Shown here: piece by piece, positions 4,166-15,038 of the stretch
How positions within the stretch are numbered: position 1 is the first letter of the stretch
Layout: the number at the start of each line of letters is the position of its first letter
Assembly (NCBI RefSeq): GCF_000153105.1
Contig: NZ_CH672376.1
Location: 1,689,804-1,753,803, forward strand
DNA from: Blastopirellula marina DSM 3645
Lineage (GTDB): Bacteria > Planctomycetota > Planctomycetia > Pirellulales > Pirellulaceae
Reading direction: 5' to 3'
DNA: 64,000 nt
Position numbers and translations under genes: made by a program
Notes under the pieces: model-generated
The model's database searches: none
What the model saw: only the letters and a program-made list of their open reading frames with translations
Told to the model about the DNA's origin: nothing

Positions 4166-5206
4166 ATGCAGCTATCCTGCTTTTATTGCGGCAACGTTCT
4201 GCGTGCCACCGCCGACCAGTTGGGAGGCGAGATCGTTTGCCCTCACTGTCATAAGGTGGTGCGGCTCCCCGAAGCCGAGACCTTGGCGCCGGACGAACCT
4301 CATCCAGAGGGCTCTCTATTTCACTCCTGGGTGAATGACGGAATCTCCGGCTTTATTTCGTTCATCGTGCATGCCGGGCTGTTGATCCTGTTCGCGTCGG
4401 TGACCTGCAACTTTCAATCGGCGACTTCCGGCGATGGGGTCGATGTGCTGATCGGCGATATGCCCGAGGTCAGTCTCGATGATTCGGGGGGCGAAACGCT
4501 GGATACGGTCGCCGCCGCCAGCGAAGTCTCGGAAACGGTCGAGGTCGACGAACTTCTGAACGAAGTCGCACCTCCCAGCGCCGAGCCGACCGATATCGGC
4601 GAGCTGATTGACACGGCGGCACTGACCCCCAGCGGCGCGATGGGGGGCGGGATCGGTTCGCTCTCGACGATCGGAGGAGGGGGGAGCGGCGTCGGCGCCG
4701 GAGCTTCGTTCATGGGCTTGCGAGCCGCTGGCCGCCGGTTTTGCATCATTGCCGACTGTTCGGGGTCGATGTCTGGCGTCAAGCTTGACTATGTCAAAGA
4801 AGAGATTCTAGAAACGGTCTCCAGCTTGCCGCGCGAAGCGCAGTTTCAAGTCATCTTCTTCCAGTCCCAAGCGGTTCCTTTTCCACAAAAAGGTTGGCGA
4901 CATCCGAAACGTGATTTCAATGCGTTGTCCGAATGGCTGAAAACGGTGGGGCCTGCCGGCGGAACAAATCCGTTGCCGGCGTTTGAGATCGCGTTGAAGT
5001 TCTCACCGCGCCCCGACGCGGTCTTCTTTATGACCGACGGTTTATTTGACGACAATGTCGTGGGCGAAGTGAAACGACAGAACGACCTGAGCGAGCCGAA
5101 AGTCAAAGTCCACGCGATTTCGTTCATGGATCGCAGCGCCGAACCGCTGATGCGACAAATCGCCGGCGAATCAGGAGGGGAGTATCGCCATGTTCAGGCG
5201 TTCTAG
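4166..5206 (+). CDS. Zinc-ribbon, membrane-anchored VWA-domain protein with TonB/TolA-like anchor
   Basis: The N-terminus is a zinc ribbon (CxxC at Cys5/Cys8 and Cys25/Cys28). One membrane helix follows (about 61-81), then an acidic, Gly-rich linker (85-185) and a von Willebrand factor A domain (about 188-346). The VWA has an intact MIDAS: D197-C-S-G-S201, a Thr in GGTNP (Thr267) and Asp291 in MTDG. The helix contains S65-F-I-V-H69, the Ser-x3-His spacing seen in the energised anchors of TonB and TolA, and is followed by LL. The predicted topology is zinc ribbon in the cytoplasm and VWA in the periplasm. It opens an operon with ExbB and two ExbDs and overlaps the next gene by 17 nt. I infer it is the TonB/TolA-like moving part of that motor. 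The family is not named in my knowledge. Confidence 0.85.
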   Translation: MQLSCFYCGNVLRATADQLGGEIVCPHCHKVVRLPEAETLAPDEPHPEGSLFHSWVNDGISGFISFIVHAGLLILFASVTCNFQSATSGDGVDVLIGDMPEVSLDDSGGETLDTVAAASEVSETVEVDELLNEVAPPSAEPTDIGELIDTAALTPSGAMGGGIGSLSTIGGGGSGVGAGASFMGLRAAGRRFCIIADCSGSMSGVKLDYVKEEILETVSSLPREAQFQVIFFQSQAVPFPQKGWRHPKRDFNALSEWLKTVGPAGGTNPLPAFEIALKFSPRPDAVFFMTDGLFDDNVVGEVKRQNDLSEPKVKVHAISFMDRSAEPLMRQIAGESGGEYRHVQAF

Positions 5207-6314
5207 CGGCGGCCGATTGCTTGCAATCATCGCTGCGCCCCTCTTCACGTTGTGGCTGGCCGCGCCGGTTTGCGCCGATCGGTTGATATTGCGCAACCTG
5301 GAAATCCTTAACAACGTCAAAGTGTTGTCTCTTGACGAAGATGGGGTCAACGTCGATGGCCAGGGGATCATCGGTTGGGATCAGATCGAACGCGGGGCCG
5401 TCGGCCTGAAGCAGGATCAATTTGACAAGCGGCTCCAAGATTTGGGGGGACCGCTCTTTCGTTTGCGGCAACGTCTGAGCGTGGGAGACTATGTCGGTTT
5501 GGCGGAACAAGCGGAAGCGTTGTTTCCGATCTACGCCGAGCGGAATAGCGAGACCGCCTATCTCGTCTGCCAAGCGACCATGTGGAGTCGACAAGCGTCC
5601 GGACGTCCGGCGGCGGCGTTGGAGGCTTATTTTCGCAGCTTGAAAATGTTGCGAGGCAAAGCGGGCCTGATCGGCACGCTGCCGGGAGAGCGCAAGCTAA
5701 GTTTTGACGCGGCGACTGGATTATCTCCCGAACTAGAGCCGATCTTCTTTGATGTCGAAGAGGCGAAAGCGGCGCTTCCCCGCGTCAAAGCGGCGGCTCA
5801 AGATTTGCAAACGCCGCTGCCGCAAGCGACGTTCATCTATGTTGGCTCGTTGGCGATCGCGGCCGGCGACATGCAGTTGGCGGACAAGTCGTTTGAAAAC
5901 CTCCGAGCTGACAACGCGCTGATTTCTGATTGGCGCGTGATCGCGCCCGCGTTGCGAGATTTGGCTCGCGGCGAAGAGGATCAGGTCATTGTGCAGATCG
6001 AAGCACGCTTGCCCGGCATGCATCCTTTTAATCAAAGCATCGCTCACTATTTGCTAGGGAACGCGCGCATCGCGGATGGGATGCAATCGGCCGTCCAGCG
6101 GGGAGTGCTGGACCTGATGTATGTTCCGGCGATCGAAGGAACCCAGCGGTCTGAACTCTCGGCGGCCGCGTTGTATCAATCGCTGACCGCACTGCAAAAA
6201 GCAGGCGAAACGAGTCAAGCGGCGAGTCTGCGCAAAGAAATTTTAGAAAACTACAGCGGCGCGTATTTCGGACAACGGCTGCGAGAGCAAATCAATCGCG
6301 GCGAGGATCATTGA
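5190..6314 (+). CDS. Secreted/periplasmic protein of the VWA-ExbBD operon, unknown function
   Basis: This 374-residue protein begins with a signal peptide (MFRRSSGGRLLAIIAAPLF, cleavage near VCADRL). After it comes a short beta-rich stretch that resembles the start of the 307-residue protein encoded at the other end of the operon: both begin with a recognition-like segment in which a sequence feature is read out as DRLILRNLE or VVLVRGES. Helical, TPR-like content follows (about 95-374, with repeated aalaaGd and aDkSFE patterns). Its start lies inside the VWA gene (17-nt overlap) and the gap to exbB is 9 nt, so translation is probably coupled. No catalytic motif is seen. A periplasmic partner or scaffold is plausible. 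Confidence 0.75.
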   Translation: MFRRSSGGRLLAIIAAPLFTLWLAAPVCADRLILRNLEILNNVKVLSLDEDGVNVDGQGIIGWDQIERGAVGLKQDQFDKRLQDLGGPLFRLRQRLSVGDYVGLAEQAEALFPIYAERNSETAYLVCQATMWSRQASGRPAAALEAYFRSLKMLRGKAGLIGTLPGERKLSFDAATGLSPELEPIFFDVEEAKAALPRVKAAAQDLQTPLPQATFIYVGSLAIAAGDMQLADKSFENLRADNALISDWRVIAPALRDLARGEEDQVIVQIEARLPGMHPFNQSIAHYLLGNARIADGMQSAVQRGVLDLMYVPAIEGTQRSELSAAALYQSLTALQKAGETSQAASLRKEILENYSGAYFGQRLREQINRGEDH

Positions 6315-6323
6315 GGAAATAAC

Positions 6324-7115
6324 ATGAGACGCACCATCGGAATCCGCGCCATATTGGCGTATTCGTTCGTCTTGCTGGTCGGGACCTACAGCATGACGCT
6401 GTTGGCGCAAGACGGCCCGCCGGCGGGCGAAACGCTGACCGTGGAAGAATCGGTCGAAACGCCGACCGAAGAGAACACCCCGCAACGGACCTTGTTGGAT
6501 ACGCTGATGGATGGCGGAGTGGTCGGTGCATTGATCGGCGTCTTGTCGATCGTCGCGGTCGGTTTTATCGTCGAGCATTTTCTCTCGATTCGCAAAGATG
6601 TCTTGATGCCGGAAGATATCGCGATCAGTCTCAGCGACTTGGTCGAAGAGGGGAAAATCGATGAAGCGATCGAAGTTTGTCAGCATCCCGGCAGTCGCAG
6701 CTTGTTGGCTTACGTCGTCGAATCGGGCCTGACCCGCTATCGCAGTTCAGAATTTGGTTTCGCCGAATACAAAGCGGCGGTCGAAGAAGCCGGCGAAGAG
6801 CAAACCGGCCAGCTGTACCGCAAAATCGAAGTGCTCGGCCTGATTGGTCAAATCGCGCCGATGTTGGGGCTGACCGGCACCGTGCTCGGCATGATCAACG
6901 CGTTCAATACGATCGCCGCAACCGACGGCGCACCGAAGCCGGCCGAATTAGCCGAGGCGATCGGCCAGGCGCTGGTGACAACGCTGTTGGGCCTGGTCGT
7001 CGCGATTCCGGCGATGGTCGCCTATAGCTTTTTCGGCAACCGGATCGACTCGCTCGTTTCCGAAGCCGGCAAACGGGTCGAGCAGATTTTGACCCCGCTC
7101 GGTCGTCGCCGCTAA
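6324..7115 (+). CDS. exbB: MotA/TolQ/ExbB proton channel family protein
   Basis: This is the channel subunit of a proton-motive-force motor, in the inner membrane. It has an N-terminal signal-like segment (about 1-28), a periplasmic linker rich in Glu and Pro, then three helices: about 62-88 (VVGALIGVLSIVAVGFIVEH), 168-197 with the conserved IAPMLGLTGTVLGMI segment, and 212-237 (ALVTTLLGLVVAIPAMVAY). The last two carry the conserved Thr/Gly/Pro residues of the family. The cleavable-looking N-terminal segment before helix 1 is typical of ExbB variants with an extended N-terminus. The two ExbD genes follow directly (14-nt gap), so a complete ExbB-ExbD stator is encoded. What it drives is inferred only from neighbours. 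Confidence 0.93.
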   Translation: MRRTIGIRAILAYSFVLLVGTYSMTLLAQDGPPAGETLTVEESVETPTEENTPQRTLLDTLMDGGVVGALIGVLSIVAVGFIVEHFLSIRKDVLMPEDIAISLSDLVEEGKIDEAIEVCQHPGSRSLLAYVVESGLTRYRSSEFGFAEYKAAVEEAGEEQTGQLYRKIEVLGLIGQIAPMLGLTGTVLGMINAFNTIAATDGAPKPAELAEAIGQALVTTLLGLVVAIPAMVAYSFFGNRIDSLVSEAGKRVEQILTPLGRRR

Positions 7116-7129
7116 CAGGAGCGATCGCC

Positions 7130-7546
7130 GTGAGGCTCTGTAAAAGTCGAAATCGTCATTTGCCCGAGATGAACATCACGCCGATGATTGACGTGGTGTT
7201 TCTGCTATTGATCTTTTTTGTCACCGTGACCCAAGTCTCGCAGGCGAATCGCGAACAATTGCAATTGCCGAAACAAGCAGGCGAAAAGGATCAAGATCGC
7301 TCGACATTAACGATCAACATTGATCGCCCTGGTCGAATGACCGTCGGCGGAGTCGCCGTCGATCGAGCCGATCTCGCGACGATCGTCGCCGCCGAGCTGG
7401 AAAAGGTAGGGGGAGACCCGCGCCAGCTGAAGATTTTGGTTCGCATGGATCAAGGGGCGCAAAGCCGTGCGATCAATCAATTGGTGGAACAATTCGAACA
7501 GTTTGACGTAAAGCTTGTGGAACTCGCCGTCGAAACGCCGCAGTAA
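7130..7546 (+). CDS. exbD: ExbD/TolR family biopolymer transport protein (first copy)
   Basis: This 138-residue bitopic inner-membrane protein starts with GTG, preceded by the purine-rich CAGGAGCGA. It has a short cytoplasmic segment, one helix (about 18-38, IDVVFLLLIFFVTVTQV) with the conserved proton-carrying Asp21 in NITPMIDVVF, and a periplasmic domain of about 95 residues. Fourteen nucleotides separate it from exbB and 12 from the second exbD. It is the first of two non-identical ExbD proteins, an arrangement also found in the one-TolQ/two-TolR gliding motor of Myxococcus (AglR, AglQ, AglS). Confidence 0.93.
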   Translation: MRLCKSRNRHLPEMNITPMIDVVFLLLIFFVTVTQVSQANREQLQLPKQAGEKDQDRSTLTINIDRPGRMTVGGVAVDRADLATIVAAELEKVGGDPRQLKILVRMDQGAQSRAINQLVEQFEQFDVKLVELAVETPQ

Positions 7547-7558
7547 AAGGAACGCCAG

Positions 7559-7984
7559 GTGAGACTTAGCGCCCATCGCACGACGCGCGACAAAAAGATC
7601 GACTTAAACATGACGAGCATGATTGACGTCGTGTTTTTGCTGTTGATTTTTTTCATCGTGACGGCCAGCTTTACGCCCACCGAACGGCGATTGGACATTG
7701 CGGTCCAGTCGGCCAATCCAGCGGCGGCGCAAGCGAGCGACTTTGATCCGGCGATCGTCGAAGTGACGGCGACCGACGGCGGCTTCGGCTATCAGCTGGG
7801 CAGTCGCACTTTTTCGAACCAGGAAGATTTGGAAGAAGTCTTGATCGCGTTTCCTGACAAATCGTCTCCCGCGATTGTGCGCGGTCAGGACGAAGCCCCC
7901 TATGGCATGGTTTCGGCGGCGATCCAAGCATGCAAGAATGCCGGTTTTCACGGAGTACGCTATCAGCCGCTTACCAGCAAGTAG
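7559..7984 (+). CDS. exbD: ExbD/TolR family protein (second copy)
   Basis: This 141-residue ExbD/TolR protein starts with GTG. Its single helix has the conserved Asp23 in NMTSMIDVVFLLLIFF, followed by a periplasmic domain unlike that of the first copy in sequence (TPTERRLDIAVQS onward). Both copies keep the charged membrane residue, so both could take part in proton transfer, perhaps as a heterodimer. The gene for the TPR protein begins inside its 3' end, which implies coupled translation. Confidence 0.93.
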   Translation: MRLSAHRTTRDKKIDLNMTSMIDVVFLLLIFFIVTASFTPTERRLDIAVQSANPAAAQASDFDPAIVEVTATDGGFGYQLGSRTFSNQEDLEEVLIAFPDKSSPAIVRGQDEAPYGMVSAAIQACKNAGFHGVRYQPLTSK

Positions 7985-10577
7985 ACGAGCGACATGGGCC
8001 GGCATGGCGGCGCTCTGGGCGTTGTCCGCGACGCTCGCTGCTGCGCAGTCTTATGACAATCGGGCGAAGGAGATCTTGAACGATGAGTTCAAGCAGGTCG
8101 ACGATTATCTCGCACATTTGGGTTTAACGGAACAGCGAATCTTGCTAAGCGAAGCCTACGTCGAAAAGCCGATTGATGAAGCGAGTCGCCGCCAGGCGCT
8201 GCGTGGGCTGGCCGATCTCTTCGCCGCTCGGTTGATGGAAGTCAGCGGCGATGACGCGCAGTTCGACGCCTATCGCAGCCGCGTTCAAAAGCTGATCCAA
8301 AAATATCCGGCGGCCAATGCTCCCTCGCTGCAGGTTATGCTGCTCCAGGCCGACTATCAACGAGCCGAAGCCGCCGCATCCGAGTGGATCGCCGATCCGT
8401 CGAAGTCGGACGCCAAGCAGACCGCCGCGTCGATCTTGAAAGTGATCACGCCCCGGTTGACCGTCGCCGCCAAGCAACTTCGCAGCGATATCACCCAGGG
8501 GTTTGAAGAAGTCGATCGAATGCCCAGCGGACCGACGGCCGAAGCGCGGGAACGCGAACTACGCGCCCTGGAAGGGGTCGCCGGTCGAGCCGCTTACTTC
8601 GCCGCGTGGGCCAATTACTATCGTGCGGTGATCGAAGGGAACCCGCAGTCCGCCGCGATTCCGGAAGCGATGAAGCTGTTTCAGGGACTGCTGGGGATTG
8701 AAGGAGAAAATTACAACGCCGTTGATCCTCTCCAGTTGGGCCTGATCGTCGAATGGCGAGCGCGGGCCTTAATTGGGTTAGGACTGTGTGAAGCGTTTCT
8801 CGGCCGGATGGATGCGAGTCGCCGCGTGTTTGAGATTTTGCGGCAAAGCGACGCGTCGCCGCAGATCATGGACCAAGCCGACTATTGGTTTGTCCGCGGT
8901 CTGCTAAACGCCAAAAGATATGACGAAGCGCTGACCGAATCGCAACGTCTGGTGAGTCACTTTCAGGGGGATGGCAGCGAAGGCAAGATCAGCTTGTGCG
9001 CCTTGATCGCGCAGGTCGGATTTCATCCTCTCGCGGGGACGTCGCCGCAACAGATGCGGCAGCTAGGCTTGGTCGGCATCGTCGGCCTGGCGAAATTGGG
9101 CCGCATCGGCGCCGCGATCCAATTGCTGGACGAACACCAGATCGACGTTAGCGGCGATCCCGGCTTTTATCTGCTGTGGCTGGAAGGGCAACGGCAGTTT
9201 GCCGCGGCCGAAAAATCGAAGGAAGAACGCGACTACAAAGAAGCGAAAGTGCTGCTGATCAAAGCGGTCGCCAATCCTCCTACGGGAGACGCCGGAGCGC
9301 TGGCCGAGTGTCAGTATGTGCTGGGATGGTGCTGCTATCGCTTGAAACAGTTCGCCGAAGCGAGCGGCGCTTTTCGTCAGGCGATCGCCGGCTTGAAGCT
9401 GTCGAATCCGCAAAAAGGGGTCGAAAGCGCTTGGCTGGCGTTCGTTTCGCTGCAATCGCTGGCCAAGACCGATCCCCGCTACGCCGCCGCGGCGATCGAC
9501 GTGCTGGAAGATCTGAAACGGGATTTCCCCGATCACTCTTACGCCAAAAAGGCGGATCTTTTGATCGCTCGCTTGCAGCAATCGCGCGGCTCGTTGCGTG
9601 ATTCGATTGACCAACTCGCAAAAATCCCGGCGAGCGATCCGAACTATTTGACCGCGCAATACGACTTGTGCGTCATGCTTCGCCAGCAGATTGATCAAAC
9701 CACCGATGAGGGTCAGAAGATCGGCTACGCCAAACGCCTGCTGGCGGCGTCCGATGTGCTCAACCGCAGTTTGGATGAGAAGTCATCGCAAAGCGATCGC
9801 GCTCGCGCCTTACGCACCCTGTTGATGGCGGTTGAGTTGTCCGCGCGCAGTTTGCTGCCGGCCGATGTGGGAGACAGCGGCATTCGTCGCGCGGCGGCGC
9901 TCGCGACGCAATTGCCAACTTCCGACGGCTCTGTTGCGGATTACCATCATCGGGCGCTGCTGTTGGCGCAGCAGCGCAAGCAGCCAGAGCAGATCTTGGA
10001 GCACGCCGATTGGATTTTGGCCAACGCGCCTGACTCCGCGTTCGCGACTTCCGCTTTGGTGGTGCGAGCGCTCGATATCGATCGCCGCTTGCAAGAAACG
10101 GCGACGCCGGAGATTCGTACCGAGGCGTTTGAGATCTATCGACAACTGGTCCAAAAGCTCGGCTCTTCGCCGCAGACGCTGCGTGAAAAGAAAAATGCGC
10201 GTGTCGCCGCCAGCAAGTTCGCCGAGTATGCCGAACTAATTGGCCGGCGAGCCGAGGCCGCGACGGTAATTTCGAGTCTGGCCGCAGCCTTTCCCGATGA
10301 CCGTACTTATTTGCAACAAGCGGGCCGAGCTGCGTTTGAAGCCGGAATGGTCGAAATCGCCCTAGAACATTGGCGTAAACTACTTTTAGGGCTCGATCGC
10401 GGCTCTTCCGAATGGTTCGAAGCCAAGTCGTACCAGCTTGCGTGCCTTGCCGAGACGGACCCTGAGGGGGCTCGTAAAGTGCTGGCGCAATTCAAGTTGC
10501 TGTATCCCGCAGGCGGCCCACCCCCTTGGCGTGATAAAATAAAGATTGTGGAACAGGAACTGGCCTCGTCGCGGTGA
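7938..10577 (+). CDS. Large periplasmic TPR-repeat protein of the ExbBD operon
   Basis: This is an 879-residue all-helical protein built from many TPR-like repeats, for example the segments near residues 470-500 (AECQYVLGWCCYRLKQFAEA), 570-600 and 690-730. I chose the ATG at 7938 because it gives a sensible signal peptide: basic n-region RLPASRRATW, hydrophobic MAALWALSATLAAA, cleavage near AQS. An in-frame ATG at 8004 leaves only a minimal one, and an upstream ATG at 7875 adds an unlikely extension inside exbD. Either good start overlaps or abuts the second exbD. No enzyme motif is visible. TPR scaffolds commonly pair with ExbB/ExbD in planctomycetes and bacteroidetes, so a periplasmic scaffold role is inferred. 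Confidence 0.82.
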   Translation: MPVFTEYAISRLPASRRATWAGMAALWALSATLAAAQSYDNRAKEILNDEFKQVDDYLAHLGLTEQRILLSEAYVEKPIDEASRRQALRGLADLFAARLMEVSGDDAQFDAYRSRVQKLIQKYPAANAPSLQVMLLQADYQRAEAAASEWIADPSKSDAKQTAASILKVITPRLTVAAKQLRSDITQGFEEVDRMPSGPTAEARERELRALEGVAGRAAYFAAWANYYRAVIEGNPQSAAIPEAMKLFQGLLGIEGENYNAVDPLQLGLIVEWRARALIGLGLCEAFLGRMDASRRVFEILRQSDASPQIMDQADYWFVRGLLNAKRYDEALTESQRLVSHFQGDGSEGKISLCALIAQVGFHPLAGTSPQQMRQLGLVGIVGLAKLGRIGAAIQLLDEHQIDVSGDPGFYLLWLEGQRQFAAAEKSKEERDYKEAKVLLIKAVANPPTGDAGALAECQYVLGWCCYRLKQFAEASGAFRQAIAGLKLSNPQKGVESAWLAFVSLQSLAKTDPRYAAAAIDVLEDLKRDFPDHSYAKKADLLIARLQQSRGSLRDSIDQLAKIPASDPNYLTAQYDLCVMLRQQIDQTTDEGQKIGYAKRLLAASDVLNRSLDEKSSQSDRARALRTLLMAVELSARSLLPADVGDSGIRRAAALATQLPTSDGSVADYHHRALLLAQQRKQPEQILEHADWILANAPDSAFATSALVVRALDIDRRLQETATPEIRTEAFEIYRQLVQKLGSSPQTLREKKNARVAASKFAEYAELIGRRAEAATVISSLAAAFPDDRTYLQQAGRAAFEAGMVEIALEHWRKLLLGLDRGSSEWFEAKSYQLACLAETDPEGARKVLAQFKLLYPAGGPPPWRDKIKIVEQELASSR

Positions 10578-10599
10578 AGTCTCGCCGCTGGAATGCTGC

Positions 10600-13500
10600 A
10601 TGTCTGACGACCAACCCTCTGCGAATGATCGCCCTGCGGCACGCATCGAAGCGTTCCTCGGTCGGGCTACGTCGTTTATGGCGATCTATGGAGCGTCTGA
10701 TCCAACGCGTTTGGGGCAGTTGGCGATCATCGCTGATCAATTGGGACTGACCAATCAAGAGTATCAAGCGGCGCTGCAGCAACTTCGCGAGAATCGCGAA
10801 GTCGTCGCCAAACCGAAGGCGCTGCCGCGAACGTTGCCAACCGCTCCGGTCGAATCGGAGCGGCCGCCGACCGAACCGCCTGCGTCGCGCTGCGTGCTGA
10901 CGGCGTCCGATCCGCTCCGTGATTCGTTTTTGCAGCAAGCAAAATTGTTGCTTTCCGCCACGAATGCCGAGACGCCAGAGAAGCTGCGGAAATTGGCGGC
11001 CAAGCTGGGTGTGGATGACGATCAGTTCGAGCGTTGGTTGAGCGAGTTGCACGGCCCGTTTATCGTGGCCGAAACGGTTCCTGAACCAGAAGAAGAGGAG
11101 CCGGTTGAAACCAAGGAACCGACGCCGCCGAAGATCGAGCGCAAACCGCCTCAGGAGATGTATGAGGATTACCTCCATCTGGCGCTGGCGGCGATTACTT
11201 CCGGCAGGATCAACCAGCGGCGAGAAACGAAACTGATCGCCGAAGGGGTGGAGAAGCTCGGGCTCTCGCCGGTGTTGGCGCGGGACATGCTGTACGCCGC
11301 GGCCGAGCGGCGTAACTATGTTCTGTTGTCGCAGTCGTCGGAACCGAGCGAAGCTTTGGTTGTCGACGAAAAACGTGAGCAGACAATCACCGAATTTCAA
11401 CAACGGGCCGCTTCGATCATCGCAGGGCAGGGAGGGGTCAGCTCGGTTTGTCGCGTGATGATCGCCGAAGCGGCGACGGAGTTCGGGCTGTCCAAGGAAG
11501 AAAAAGAGCAAGCGCTCGCCGCACTGCAGCGACAAGACGATTCGCGGCTGGCCGATCCGTTAGAAGAGCGAATCGCCGCGTTTCGCCGTTTCGCTTGCGA
11601 TAAGGTGAAGAAGACCGAAAGCCAGATCGTCGGGGACTTGTTGACCCGGCAATTAACGCAGATCGGCGTTGACCTGCACGGCCTGCCGGAAGAAACCGCG
11701 GCGGCGACGGTGCGCGAAGCGATCACGACGACAGCGCTGCGCGTCGTCACGCTCGATCAGGCGATCACCCATGTCCTGTCGATCGTCGACGATCTATTGG
11801 CGGACGAAGGTTTTATTTCGATCGAAAATCGAAAGCGGTTGTTGACCGAGGCGCGACAATGGGGCGTCGCGCGAGCCGAAGCGAGCCTGCTCATCGAAGA
11901 GCACATCGCGAACATTGAGTCTCGAGCGAAGCGTCGCCGGCGGCGGATCTTCGCGGCGGTGTTAGTCTCGACGATGATGCTGTTTGGCGGTTTGGCGCTC
12001 GTTTATTGGGGCAAACCGGAGTGGGCCAATTTGGGCCAAGGTCCCAGCGTCTGGAATTCCGATCGAACCGGTGGCGCCGGGACCAACTCGCAGCCGGATC
12101 CCACGAGCGAAGAAGAGGGATTTCAGCGAGTTTCGTGGTGGAACGAAGCGCTGACAATCGATCTGCTGGCGCTGCGCCATCGACGTACCGATCTCCAGCC
12201 GACGACGGCTGCGATCGCCAAAGAAGATGCACGGCAGCGGGCTGAAGGGTACGCTGAATTTATTCCGAAGCTGGTCGAAGCTGCGGCCGACGAAGATAAC
12301 GCGACGCATGCCGAGCAATTGCGCGTCATCTTGCGCCGTTTGGCGATCGACGAACCGGATGACGCTGCATTTCAAACGTTGGCCCAGTCGCTTTTGAAAC
12401 AAGTCCCCGCCAAAGAAGACGCGATACATTCCAAGAGCAATGCTGTTCGGCAATATGTCGCACTGGGGTTGTTTGTCGACATCGCGCAACAGCGCGAGTT
12501 GGCGGTCGGGCGACGTGATCAAATCATCGCTCGCTTAGAGCAGAGGCTCGGCGTGGTGACCGGACCGGCGGCCGATTTGGCGGCCGTTTTTGCGGACGAA
12601 CTAGCACGCAACCAATACGCTTCCCTGGGGCGCCTGATCGAGAAAGATCCAGCCGAAGCGATGGCGACGCATCAAATGCTGCAGCGCATCGTCCGAGCGA
12701 ACGTCAATCGACAGTTGGCTGGCGACCTGGACGGAGACGCGCTGTTGGCGATCTTGCCGCGGGTTCCTCAAGATCTGAATCGCTATCGCAGCGTCCTGGA
12801 CCAGCAGATCAGCCAACGCAATTTGGCGGTCTTGCTCCGTTTGATCGAATTGCTCGAATCGGGCAAGACCAACGGTCAGGTCGCCAGAGAACTGCAATCG
12901 TTGCTGGCCAAAGTGGCCGATGTCACCGTCGATGGGATGGACCCGACTGACGCCGCAATCGTCATGCGCAGCGCGCTGGCCGGTTTGGCAGGGCAGGGGG
13001 ATGTGGGCGAGATGACTCGCTTTTTCGCCGGGCAGGCCCATCAGATTGAGTTGAGCGAAAGCGCGTTTGGTTCGCCCGACGAATGGCTCAACGATGCGGT
13101 GGAGTTGTCGAGAATCTCCGCACTGGGCGCCGCCGCCGCCCAAAAAGAATCAGGCCGCCGGCTGTTTCAATCTCTTTCGAGCGACGTGCCGGAACCGATT
13201 CGCGCCTCGAAAACGGGGGGACGACGCGTAACGTCGCAAGATCGCGTGGATCGAATTCGTGAAGCGTTTCGTCAGTTGGGCCGCGCCAATGACGCGCGTC
13301 GGCGCGTCATGGCGTACGAGAACTTGGCCGCAATTATCTCTGGTAGCGACGATCTCGACTACTACCACGCCGAACGACTGGTCGACTATCTGCTGCTGAA
13401 AAAACTGGGGGACGAACATGACGCCGTCCTGCGCAAGCTAAGCGACTTTCGGGGTTCGGGCATGCTGCGATTGGCGTTTTCGGATCACTTAGAGGAATCG

Positions 13501-14112
13501 ATCATGCCGCTCTCCGAGGTGGAGCGGATGGCGAGCGAAATCGTGGGTCGTCCGATCGTGTTGCTCGACAAGACCATCTGGAAAGAAGAGCTGCGGCGTA
13601 TTTTGTTGTCGGACGCACTGCCGCGCTTGCATGACGACGCCAAAGTCGCCGGGGAAGATGTCTCGGGCGACGTCTTGGAGCAATCGGCCGCCAGCTTGCT
13701 GGACTACTATCGAATTCAAGCGGAAATCGCCGGCGTGCCCTATGAGCAGCGGATGGTCATGCGGCTCCCTAGCGACGCGCTGCAAGCGATGATCCAACTG
13801 CAGATCGATCAATTGGCCGCGGCGAAGCTTTCGCCCGATTTGCAGGCGAAGTTGGATGACGTATTGTTGCAATCGCGCGTCGTCTCGCTGGTGGCTCGCA
13901 ATGACTTAACCAAGACCGCCGCGTTACAGCGAATCTGGTTAGAACTATCGGCGATCGCCGCTGTTCGTGCACAGCCAAATTCGCGTCTGGCGACCGATCA
14001 GCTGATCGCCAAGTTGCGGCAAGTCGATCAAAGTTCGCAAAATGTCTTTCAGCAAATCCGCAACGGCGAAGCGGCGCTGGTCCGCATGCAATTGATTCGG
14101 ATGGAGACATAG
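10600..14112 (+). CDS. Very large bitopic membrane protein of the ExbBD operon, unknown family
   Basis: This is a 1170-residue protein with no recognised family. The start at 10600 gives MSDDQPSANDRP; an upstream ATG at 10546 would overlap the TPR gene. Residues 1 to about 440 are hydrophilic and probably cytoplasmic, with several similar alpha-helical segments of the form ...A..lG....efe.wl..l that look like repeated small domains (near 30-65, 110-150, 190-230, 270-310). A basic cluster (KRRRRR) precedes one transmembrane helix at about 448-470 (IFAAVLVSTMMLFGGLALVYW). The remaining roughly 700 residues should be periplasmic, helical and HEAT/TPR-like. It bridges the cytoplasm and periplasm beside a proton-driven stator. 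The next gene starts 2 nt after its stop. Confidence 0.8.
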   Translation: MSDDQPSANDRPAARIEAFLGRATSFMAIYGASDPTRLGQLAIIADQLGLTNQEYQAALQQLRENREVVAKPKALPRTLPTAPVESERPPTEPPASRCVLTASDPLRDSFLQQAKLLLSATNAETPEKLRKLAAKLGVDDDQFERWLSELHGPFIVAETVPEPEEEEPVETKEPTPPKIERKPPQEMYEDYLHLALAAITSGRINQRRETKLIAEGVEKLGLSPVLARDMLYAAAERRNYVLLSQSSEPSEALVVDEKREQTITEFQQRAASIIAGQGGVSSVCRVMIAEAATEFGLSKEEKEQALAALQRQDDSRLADPLEERIAAFRRFACDKVKKTESQIVGDLLTRQLTQIGVDLHGLPEETAAATVREAITTTALRVVTLDQAITHVLSIVDDLLADEGFISIENRKRLLTEARQWGVARAEASLLIEEHIANIESRAKRRRRRIFAAVLVSTMMLFGGLALVYWGKPEWANLGQGPSVWNSDRTGGAGTNSQPDPTSEEEGFQRVSWWNEALTIDLLALRHRRTDLQPTTAAIAKEDARQRAEGYAEFIPKLVEAAADEDNATHAEQLRVILRRLAIDEPDDAAFQTLAQSLLKQVPAKEDAIHSKSNAVRQYVALGLFVDIAQQRELAVGRRDQIIARLEQRLGVVTGPAADLAAVFADELARNQYASLGRLIEKDPAEAMATHQMLQRIVRANVNRQLAGDLDGDALLAILPRVPQDLNRYRSVLDQQISQRNLAVLLRLIELLESGKTNGQVARELQSLLAKVADVTVDGMDPTDAAIVMRSALAGLAGQGDVGEMTRFFAGQAHQIELSESAFGSPDEWLNDAVELSRISALGAAAAQKESGRRLFQSLSSDVPEPIRASKTGGRRVTSQDRVDRIREAFRQLGRANDARRRVMAYENLAAIISGSDDLDYYHAERLVDYLLLKKLGDEHDAVLRKLSDFRGSGMLRLAFSDHLEESIMPLSEVERMASEIVGRPIVLLDKTIWKEELRRILLSDALPRLHDDAKVAGEDVSGDVLEQSAASLLDYYRIQAEIAGVPYEQRMVMRLPSDALQAMIQLQIDQLAAAKLSPDLQAKLDDVLLQSRVVSLVARNDLTKTAALQRIWLELSAIAAVRAQPNSRLATDQLIAKLRQVDQSSQNVFQQIRNGEAALVRMQLIRMET

Positions 14113-14114
14113 CC

Positions 14115-15038
14115 ATGTTGCGGATCCTCCTGGCCATTTCGATCAGTTTGTCACTCTGGCCGGCCTCCGCCGGCGCTGCGGTCGTGCTGGTCCGCGGAGA
14201 GTCGGATCCCGTTACTGGCTATGTCGAAAGTCGCTCTGGCGGCGTACTGCGGATGCGGATTCCGCAAGCAGGCGGCAAGAACCGCACGCGCGACATACCG
14301 CTAGGGGATGTCGAGGAAGTCATCGAGACGGTTTCGCCTAATCGACTTGCCGAACTGAGTCCCGCCAAGCCGGAGGGCTATCGGAACTATGCGGAAGAGT
14401 TGGCGCAGAAGAAGATTGACCCGGAGGCTCGCGAGACGGCGCTGAGGCTGTTTTTGATCGCCGCTCGATTGGACCCGGCGCGTTTGGGACGCAGTTGCTT
14501 GCTCGGAATGACGGCGATTGCTCGTTCGCCGGAAGAGGCGAGCCGCTTTCAGGCGATGGCCTATTTACTGGACCCAGAGCATGACGTCCAACTCATTCAC
14601 CGACGCCCTGCGCTGCAACTGGCCAATCCCGAGAGAGTCGAAGAGTGGAAATCGTTGATCATCACCGGTCTACGGAAACTACGCGGCGGCGATCACCGCT
14701 CGGCTCGATCCATACTAAAGCGGACTGAAATACAGAAGGCGTTTGACAGCATCGTGTCAGATATCAGTTACGAAGATTGCCTTGCGATTCTGAATAAGAC
14801 CTGCCCCGGCTGCGAAGGGGGAAAAATTCCGATGCCGCTGGTTCGCAAACTGGTGTTGGCCGAGCTCTCATTGTTGCCTGAAGTTCATGGCGCCGGTGAC
14901 ATGGAAAGCGTGCCGGAGTGGTCCGAATTGACCGCGGCTGAAAACCACAAGCCGCTGGCGACGCTGACCTTAGATACGATCACCGAGTTTGATCCGCGCA
15001 ACTCGGTTTATCGTCGCGATAAGTGGGAGACGCCGTAA
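14115..15038 (+). CDS. Secreted protein of the ExbBD operon with CxxC motif, unknown function
   Basis: This 307-residue protein has a clear signal peptide (MLRILLAISISLSLWPASAG, cleavage near GAA). A beta-rich N-terminal part (RGESDPVTGYVESRSGGV) resembles small SH3-like or LSm-like folds, and helical repeats follow. Near residues 230-240 a CPGCEGG motif looks like half of a DnaJ-type zinc site; only one CxxC pair plus an upstream Cys (EDCLAIL) is present. It closes the operon, 2 nt after the preceding stop, and converges on the hybrid kinase gene with only 8 bp between. Function unknown. Confidence 0.72.
   Translation: MLRILLAISISLSLWPASAGAAVVLVRGESDPVTGYVESRSGGVLRMRIPQAGGKNRTRDIPLGDVEEVIETVSPNRLAELSPAKPEGYRNYAEELAQKKIDPEARETALRLFLIAARLDPARLGRSCLLGMTAIARSPEEASRFQAMAYLLDPEHDVQLIHRRPALQLANPERVEEWKSLIITGLRKLRGGDHRSARSILKRTEIQKAFDSIVSDISYEDCLAILNKTCPGCEGGKIPMPLVRKLVLAELSLLPEVHGAGDMESVPEWSELTAAENHKPLATLTLDTITEFDPRNSVYRRDKWETP

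Follow-up and report, generated by a model that had tools for sequence, protein, structure and literature searches.

The window analysed here, a stretch of 64,000 nucleotides (nt) from contig NZ_CH672376.1 of Blastopirellula marina DSM 3645, carries an operon of eight genes whose products probably act as a trans-envelope machine of the Ton/Tol type, driven by the proton motive force, with a von Willebrand factor A (VWA) protein as its force arm. The genes encode the following proteins, with lengths in amino acids (aa):

4166..5206, plus strand: P0001, putative VWA force transducer, 346 aa (Pfam, transmembrane call and alignment)
5190..6314, plus strand: P0002, SecA, secreted, 374 aa, modelled as a small beta barrel and a solenoid like that of tetratricopeptide repeats (TPR)
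6324..7115, plus strand: P0003, ExbB/TolQ/MotA-family proton channel subunit, 263 aa (Pfam MotA_ExbB)
7130..7546, plus strand: P0004, ExbD/TolR subunit 1, 138 aa (Pfam ExbD; Asp in the PMIDVVFLLL helix)
7559..7984, plus strand: P0005, ExbD/TolR subunit 2, 141 aa (Pfam ExbD; Asp in the SMIDVVFLLL helix)
about 8004..10577, plus strand: P0006, TPR protein, secreted, about 857 aa (open frame from 7875)
about 10600..14112, plus strand: P0007, Big, bitopic, 1170 aa, one transmembrane (TM) helix (open frame from 10546)
14115..15038, plus strand: P0008, SecB, secreted, 307 aa, no known family

The starts of the TPR and Big genes were taken at 8004 and 10600, inside open frames that begin earlier. The VWA and SecA genes overlap by 17 nt and the later gaps measure 9, 14, 12, 19, 22 and 2 nt; these re-derived coordinates and spacings agree with the original prediction, made from the letters of the window, of eight plus-strand genes with overlaps or gaps of 2 to 22 nt. 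The spacing suggests that all eight are co-transcribed, and promoter-like and terminator-like matches in a scan of the operon were not commoner than in shuffled sequence. The operon is real, far beyond chance, because 11 other genomes of the family and five loci from other classes share the block. Pfam families above cut-off were VWA_3, VWA_2 and VWA in P0001, MotA_ExbB in P0003 (E 6.6e-29) and ExbD in P0004 and P0005 (E 1.1e-19 and 2.9e-18), with zero families above cut-off in P0002, P0007 and P0008. A Zorya (ZorAB) or other defence identity was dropped, as PADLOC matched none of its defence families to the eight proteins at E <= 0.01.

The case for a force arm lies in the VWA protein. At its N-terminus, P0001 shows four cysteines spaced as in a zinc ribbon (C5, C8, C25, C28), for which Pfam ribbon models score below cut-off only; then follow a TM helix at residues 63-81, an acidic, Gly-rich linker of about 100 residues and a C-terminal VWA domain (VWA_3 on residues 194-341, E 7.7e-12). 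Within the helix, S65 and H69 form an S-xxx-H motif. All 23 aligned VWA relatives, the most distant with 21% identity to P0001, keep both residues, and no other position of the helix is invariant. The relatives were picked by profile or position, never by the motif. As a control, we made a crude count of open reading frames (ORFs) with a single TM helix in the same loci, which gave 183, of which 181 were distinct. At the control cut-off a single TM helix was called in 22 of the 23 VWA rows, and in all 22 the motif lies inside it. Only 2 of the 181 distinct control ORFs have S-xxx-H in the helix, one being the window's own VWA gene; this gene is among seven operon genes of the window that slipped past the filter. 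Among the remaining 174, the motif occurs once, in L140:5020-6912, which is also a VWA protein by Pfam. In the VWA domain, the metal ion-dependent adhesion site (MIDAS) residues D197, S201 and D291 occur in every aligned relative, and S199 in at least 90% of them. The zinc ribbon is present in eight rows from loci with a TPR protein similar to the window's (hereafter Pirellulaceae-type loci) and in two rows unlinked to the operon; the other 13 rows are without it.

A helix of the S-xxx-H type couples TonB and TolA to their motors, and published models place the helices of vWA transducers where TonB and TolA bind the motor, according to the text of PMC12204202. The original prediction had stated that no TonB or TolA gene is present. 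For the operon this is correct: even at E up to 1, Pfam matched none of the eight proteins to TonB_C, TolB, Pal or the TolA C-terminal domain. What it overlooked is that the VWA protein, judged by its helix, appears to occupy the TonB/TolA slot of the motor. Elsewhere, the genome has one TonB_C match at E <= 0.001 (G000:C2:1503428), and its TonB_C protein, L146:4910-5674, carries the same motif as SISLH.

Both ExbD proteins of the operon have the Asp of the MID motif, and across the loci this residue lies within the first 60 residues of 46 of 48 ExbD1-type and 42 of 44 ExbD2-type ORFs. Two of the four misses (L056, L059) have the Asp further in, L135 reads PFID, and L129 is unassigned. In NCBIfam, P0003 scored higher against the TolQ model (76.9 bits) than against ExbB (59.8 bits), both far under the equivalog cut-offs.

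The general kind of system is already known. Williams-Jones et al. (2025; PMC12204202) describe, in their text, vWA force transducers encoded beside tolQ, two tolR genes and a TPR gene in the Planctomycetes-Verrucomicrobia-Chlamydiae (PVC) group, their role unexplained. P0001 resembles these proteins in having an inner membrane-anchored S-xxx-H (SHLS) helix, a linker and a C-terminal VWA domain, and the operon resembles their loci in its neighbouring tolQ-like gene, two different tolR-like genes and TPR gene. Thus the operon shows the features of the vWA family, namely a single TM helix with the motif, a VWA domain after a linker of roughly 100 residues, and tolQ, two tolR and TPR neighbours. 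It differs from those loci in that the VWA gene comes first, a zinc ribbon precedes the helix, and SecA, Big and SecB are added; neither these three genes nor the zinc ribbon is described in the text of that paper or in the papers listed by literature searches. The zinc-ribbon arm of Pirellulaceae-type loci, a SecA that resembles CpoB/YbgF as well as other TPR folds, and the module of Big plus SecB set the operon apart as a new variety of this kind. Relative to the Ton system, the operon has the same ExbB/ExbD families and S-xxx-H coupling helix, whereas it lacks a TonB_C domain and has two ExbDs, a VWA tip and a large scaffold. In R. baltica, exbB and exbD are reported as salt-induced (PMC2754498); the induction was set aside, as the text of that study gave no tie to the operon's system.

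The added proteins were analysed by structure modelling. The SecA model is confident (mean pLDDT 91.3) and shows a six-strand barrel at residues 30-70, SH3-like in our reading, and then the TPR-like solenoid. The best structural match of SecA residues 247-374 was the YbgF TPR domain of Xanthomonas (2xev; Z 16.1, root-mean-square deviation 2.1 Å, 121 residues aligned), and NprR (4gpk) came level with it at Z 15.6. A plain Foldseek search gave no match for this C-terminal part at E up to 0.001, and the sole match in profile comparison was a weak one to CpoB (6g5s; E 0.047). P0006 matches Pfam TPR models, and also tol_pal_ybgF (TIGR02795; E 9.4e-8), below cut-off only; its C-terminal part is the stretch of the operon matched most widely across the phylum. 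Big has a single hydrophobic helix after an Arg-rich stretch. Its model is less good (pLDDT 77.8, predicted template modelling score 0.35) and places three-helix modules N-terminal to the helix and an all-helical solenoid after it; by the positive-inside rule, the N-terminal modules would be cytoplasmic. S-xxx-H is absent from the TM helix of the window's Big and of the 15 relatives looked at. For Big, Foldseek and VIA returned generic HEAT-like solenoids only, the best with Z 9.3 over 109 residues, under the level that the tool treats as telling for helical repeats. SecB was originally noted as a secreted CxxC protein. The CxxC is there in the window but is missing from some relatives, and a redox centre was rejected on its absence from the aligned L032 and L034 proteins. 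SecA and SecB as paralogues are likewise unsupported (profile comparison probability 2%, E 0.023).

We then examined how constant the operon is. In the one search made with Big itself, 146 genomes of the order were covered, and 13 of them, from 5 of 88 genera, hold a relative of P0007. Twelve of these genomes, including the window's, could be read across the locus, and all have SecA-ExbB-ExbD-ExbD-TPR-Big-SecB in this order; the locus of the remaining genome, G083, is truncated where its contig ends. The VWA gene comes first in 10 of the 12 and is lacking in G105 and G140. Counted for the family, 11 genomes besides the window's have the block and nine have all eight genes. When named genome contigs were scanned with the TPR profile, 27 loci emerged, every one from a record labelled as a metagenome-assembled genome (MAG) and many from Pirellulaceae or Planctomycetaceae. 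The profile also matched 49 of 343 genomes of the phylum, many weakly; 18 of the 49, mostly from the top of the list, were read further. The resulting parts table covers 73 loci plus the window, with gene calls from ORF scans and profiles and approximate starts. The duplicates L064 (= L033), L066 (= L032) and L070 (= L137) were dropped, and the identical stretches L060 and L061 count as one locus; L065 and L069, from one MAG and perhaps two halves of a single locus, were kept separate. Loci L044-L070 and L128-L145 were found via the TPR protein, so that a Big or VWA gene without it would escape there. B-type Big rows other than L143 were in the profile used for the table. With the older Big profile, L128, L129, L130, L132 and L133 scored, and L131 and L134 were placed by position. 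The complete eight-gene order occurs in 17 loci, window included, and the main arrangements are:

All eight genes, Pirellulaceae type: window, L023-L031, L044, L045 (n=12)
All eight genes, other classes of the phylum: L129, L131, L132, L134, L143 (n=5)
Motor, SecA, TPR, Big and SecB without VWA: L032, L033, L055, L056, L058, L059, L067, L068, L060/L061 (n=9)
VWA to TPR without Big or SecB in about 10 kb downstream: L046, L048, L049 (n=3)
SecA to TPR only: L052, L053 (n=2)

Of 32 Pirellulaceae-type loci that extend beyond ExbB on its upstream side, 31 have SecA. Of 33 loci with Big, 28 have ExbB, four are cut by contig ends (L034, L047, L065, L128) and one, L133, has no motor, so that 28 of the 29 loci that can be judged, window included, have Big next to the motor. 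Big homologues occurring mostly without exbB/exbD would have spoken against a functional unit; as the 12 of 12 readable genomes and these 28 of 29 loci have the motor, that is not what we found. The VWA gene is present in 16 of the 28 Pirellulaceae-type loci with room upstream (the 12 complete ones, the three lacking Big, and L054). From these counts for SecA, VWA and Big/SecB, we conclude that SecA-ExbB-ExbD-ExbD-TPR is a near-constant core, and that VWA and Big plus SecB are separable modules that vary independently.

Several observations weigh against the proposed machine. The other 12 of the 28 loci (nine with Big, the two core-only loci and L062) lack VWA; because nine of them keep Big, VWA is a non-obligate neighbour. 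The three loci running from VWA to TPR are, conversely, without Big and SecB. L069 has motor and TPR genes and no SecA match in 2.9 kb upstream. L133 (G460:C105) keeps VWA, SecA, TPR, Big and SecB in order, but ExbB and ExbD are missing from their place between SecA and TPR. Three ExbB-family genes lie at other sites of its genome, with a low score or none against the operon type; barring an assembly fault, L133 is a true exception. The two VWA-less genomes G105 and G140, in which we searched for unlinked zinc-ribbon VWA proteins, each have one (L121, L123) with zinc ribbon, S-xxx-H helix and similar early linker, which suggests a relocated or replaced arm; these proteins belong to a different VWA subfamily and have no adjoining motor genes. 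The likeness of SecA to CpoB may also reflect mere shared arrangement, since high Z scores are common among helical solenoids. The linkage of VWA to the motor holds for 16 of 28 loci and fails in the rest. The originally predicted self-contained, proton-driven envelope machine is partly supported: conserved synteny and the motor-coupling VWA helix speak for it, and the VWA neighbourhood gives a mixed picture. A broad count of VWA proteins (321 of 343 phylum genomes) was discarded as a marker, since generic VWA domains match.

Gene content, synteny, the motor families with the ExbD Asp, the S/H pair, the MIDAS residues and the SecA model are direct observations; that the proteins form a complex and transfer force, and with which partners and to what end, is inferred. 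These data make the following mechanism probable. Proton flow through ExbB and the two ExbDs would move the VWA protein by way of its S-xxx-H helix, which, by analogy with TonB and TolA, may dock laterally on the ExbB ring. Through the flexible linker the pull would reach the C-terminal VWA domain, and this domain could grip a partner through its metal (MIDAS) site. The likeliest partners would be the periplasmic scaffold, formed by SecA, the large TPR protein, Big's periplasmic solenoid and SecB, or else an outer-membrane protein that this scaffold holds. Big, spanning the inner membrane, and the zinc ribbon would provide a cytoplasmic face for control. The grip of the MIDAS domain of Mdn1 is reported to be strengthened by forces in the piconewton range, a catch bond (PMC8837202); carried over by analogy, the operon's VWA domain might hold more tightly under load. 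We tentatively suggest that the machine tethers or remodels the inner membrane, wall and outer membrane, doing work like that of Tol-Pal, although this role is more doubtful than the mechanism. Somewhat less doubtful, and still short of an even chance, is that the operon adds to Ton and Tol a third class of trans-envelope machine driven by protons, conserved across classes of Planctomycetota and defined by a VWA/MIDAS clutch, an ExbB/ExbD/ExbD' motor, a scaffold from cytoplasm to outer membrane and possibly a catch bond.

Other roles must be weighed against this one. The operon could stand in for Tol-Pal itself, constricting or stabilizing the outer membrane at division with VWA in place of TolA and SecA or the TPR protein acting as CpoB. 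The motor is nearest the TolQ/TolR models, YbgF comes first by Z (if tied) for the SecA C-terminus with CpoB a weak profile match, and the TPR protein approaches tol_pal_ybgF. We nevertheless regard such a stand-in as unlikely: domains of TolB, Pal and TolA are absent from the operon, the two OmpA-domain genes of the genome are found at other sites (the surroundings in L147, inspected by eye, show no tol-like block), and other systems could serve, because the genome holds ten MotA/ExbB-family genes. The TonB-type helix and motor would also suit energized uptake of large substrates across the outer membrane, with VWA gripping a receptor. The genome has a separate TonB_C protein, however, and there is no receptor among the eight genes, to which the search for receptors was confined; uptake is accordingly a poor candidate. 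It is about as improbable, or slightly more so, that VWA and Big act alone and are just co-regulated, in one operon, with an ExbB/ExbD motor of general use. Their modules do vary independently, and L133 dispenses with the motor genes; against this, the S/H pair is invariant, Big adjoins the motor nearly everywhere, and gene order is kept across classes.

A surface adhesion or gliding motor like Agl-Glt, with VWA as the grip, seems to us very unlikely. The original prediction had likened one TolQ-like plus two TolR-like proteins to the Agl layout, and the operon does share this count, as well as TPR proteins, with Agl-Glt, a likeness that is unspecific. GltJ of the Agl-Glt system has a zinc ribbon before a TonB-like helix. 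CglB, a VWA-domain adhesin, serves myxobacterial gliding (reference in PMC12204202), and PMC12204202 itself proposes a link to gliding in its text. CglB is described as a surface adhesin, whereas the operon's VWA domain is fused to the transducer and held by an N-terminal TM helix rather than secreted. The same one-plus-two layout is reported as general for PVC vWA transducer loci (PMC12204202) and is therefore no pointer to gliding; the link to Agl, based on that gene count, is weak, and for this reason gliding is the least supported of Tol-like work, uptake and adhesion. A 2025 survey of MotAB proteins, in its text, places AglRS among generic ion transporters (PMC12505986).

The trans-envelope machine proposed here is of wider interest. 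To our knowledge, few processes powered by ExbB/ExbD-type motors are known. The operon supplies the parts of a predicted kind of machine for which no phenotype has been reported, and their order is conserved between classes of a phylum whose envelope is unusual. Because candidate coupling residues (S65, H69), grip residues (MIDAS) and scaffold proteins can now be named, function becomes testable with single-residue mutants.

Related genes occur in the same genome and beyond. A six-gene paralogue, VWA-SecA-ExbB-ExbD-ExbD-TPR, lies on a different contig of this genome (L038), with relatives of this type in L125 and L126. In a VWA tree, A-type and B-type proteins group together (82/93), apart from this paralogue type; the ExbB tree places the paralogue type beside A instead (81/58, a weak grouping with long branches). 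Several of the genome's MotA/ExbB genes are grouped with genes for ExbD and for secreted proteins of TPR type (L035, L036, L038, L040). In L036 (G000:C2:3081000-3095000), a 739-aa protein (L036:7597-9816) is encoded downstream of TPR-ExbB-ExbD; its second TM helix reads SIFAH and its C-terminus resembles squalene-hopene cyclase C just below cut-off (E 2.2e-5), so that it may be an S-xxx-H transducer tipped with an alpha/alpha barrel. In L138, L142 and L145, the place of Big, after the gene in TPR position, is taken by large proteins with predicted TM segments (1175, 1044 and 786 aa); they gave no match to the Big profile and may be very divergent Big proteins or replacements. In other lineages of the phylum, L144:3992-5737 and L140:5020-6912 (581 and 630 aa) combine S-xxx-H with a VWA domain, and one of the two adjoins TPR-ExbB-ExbD.

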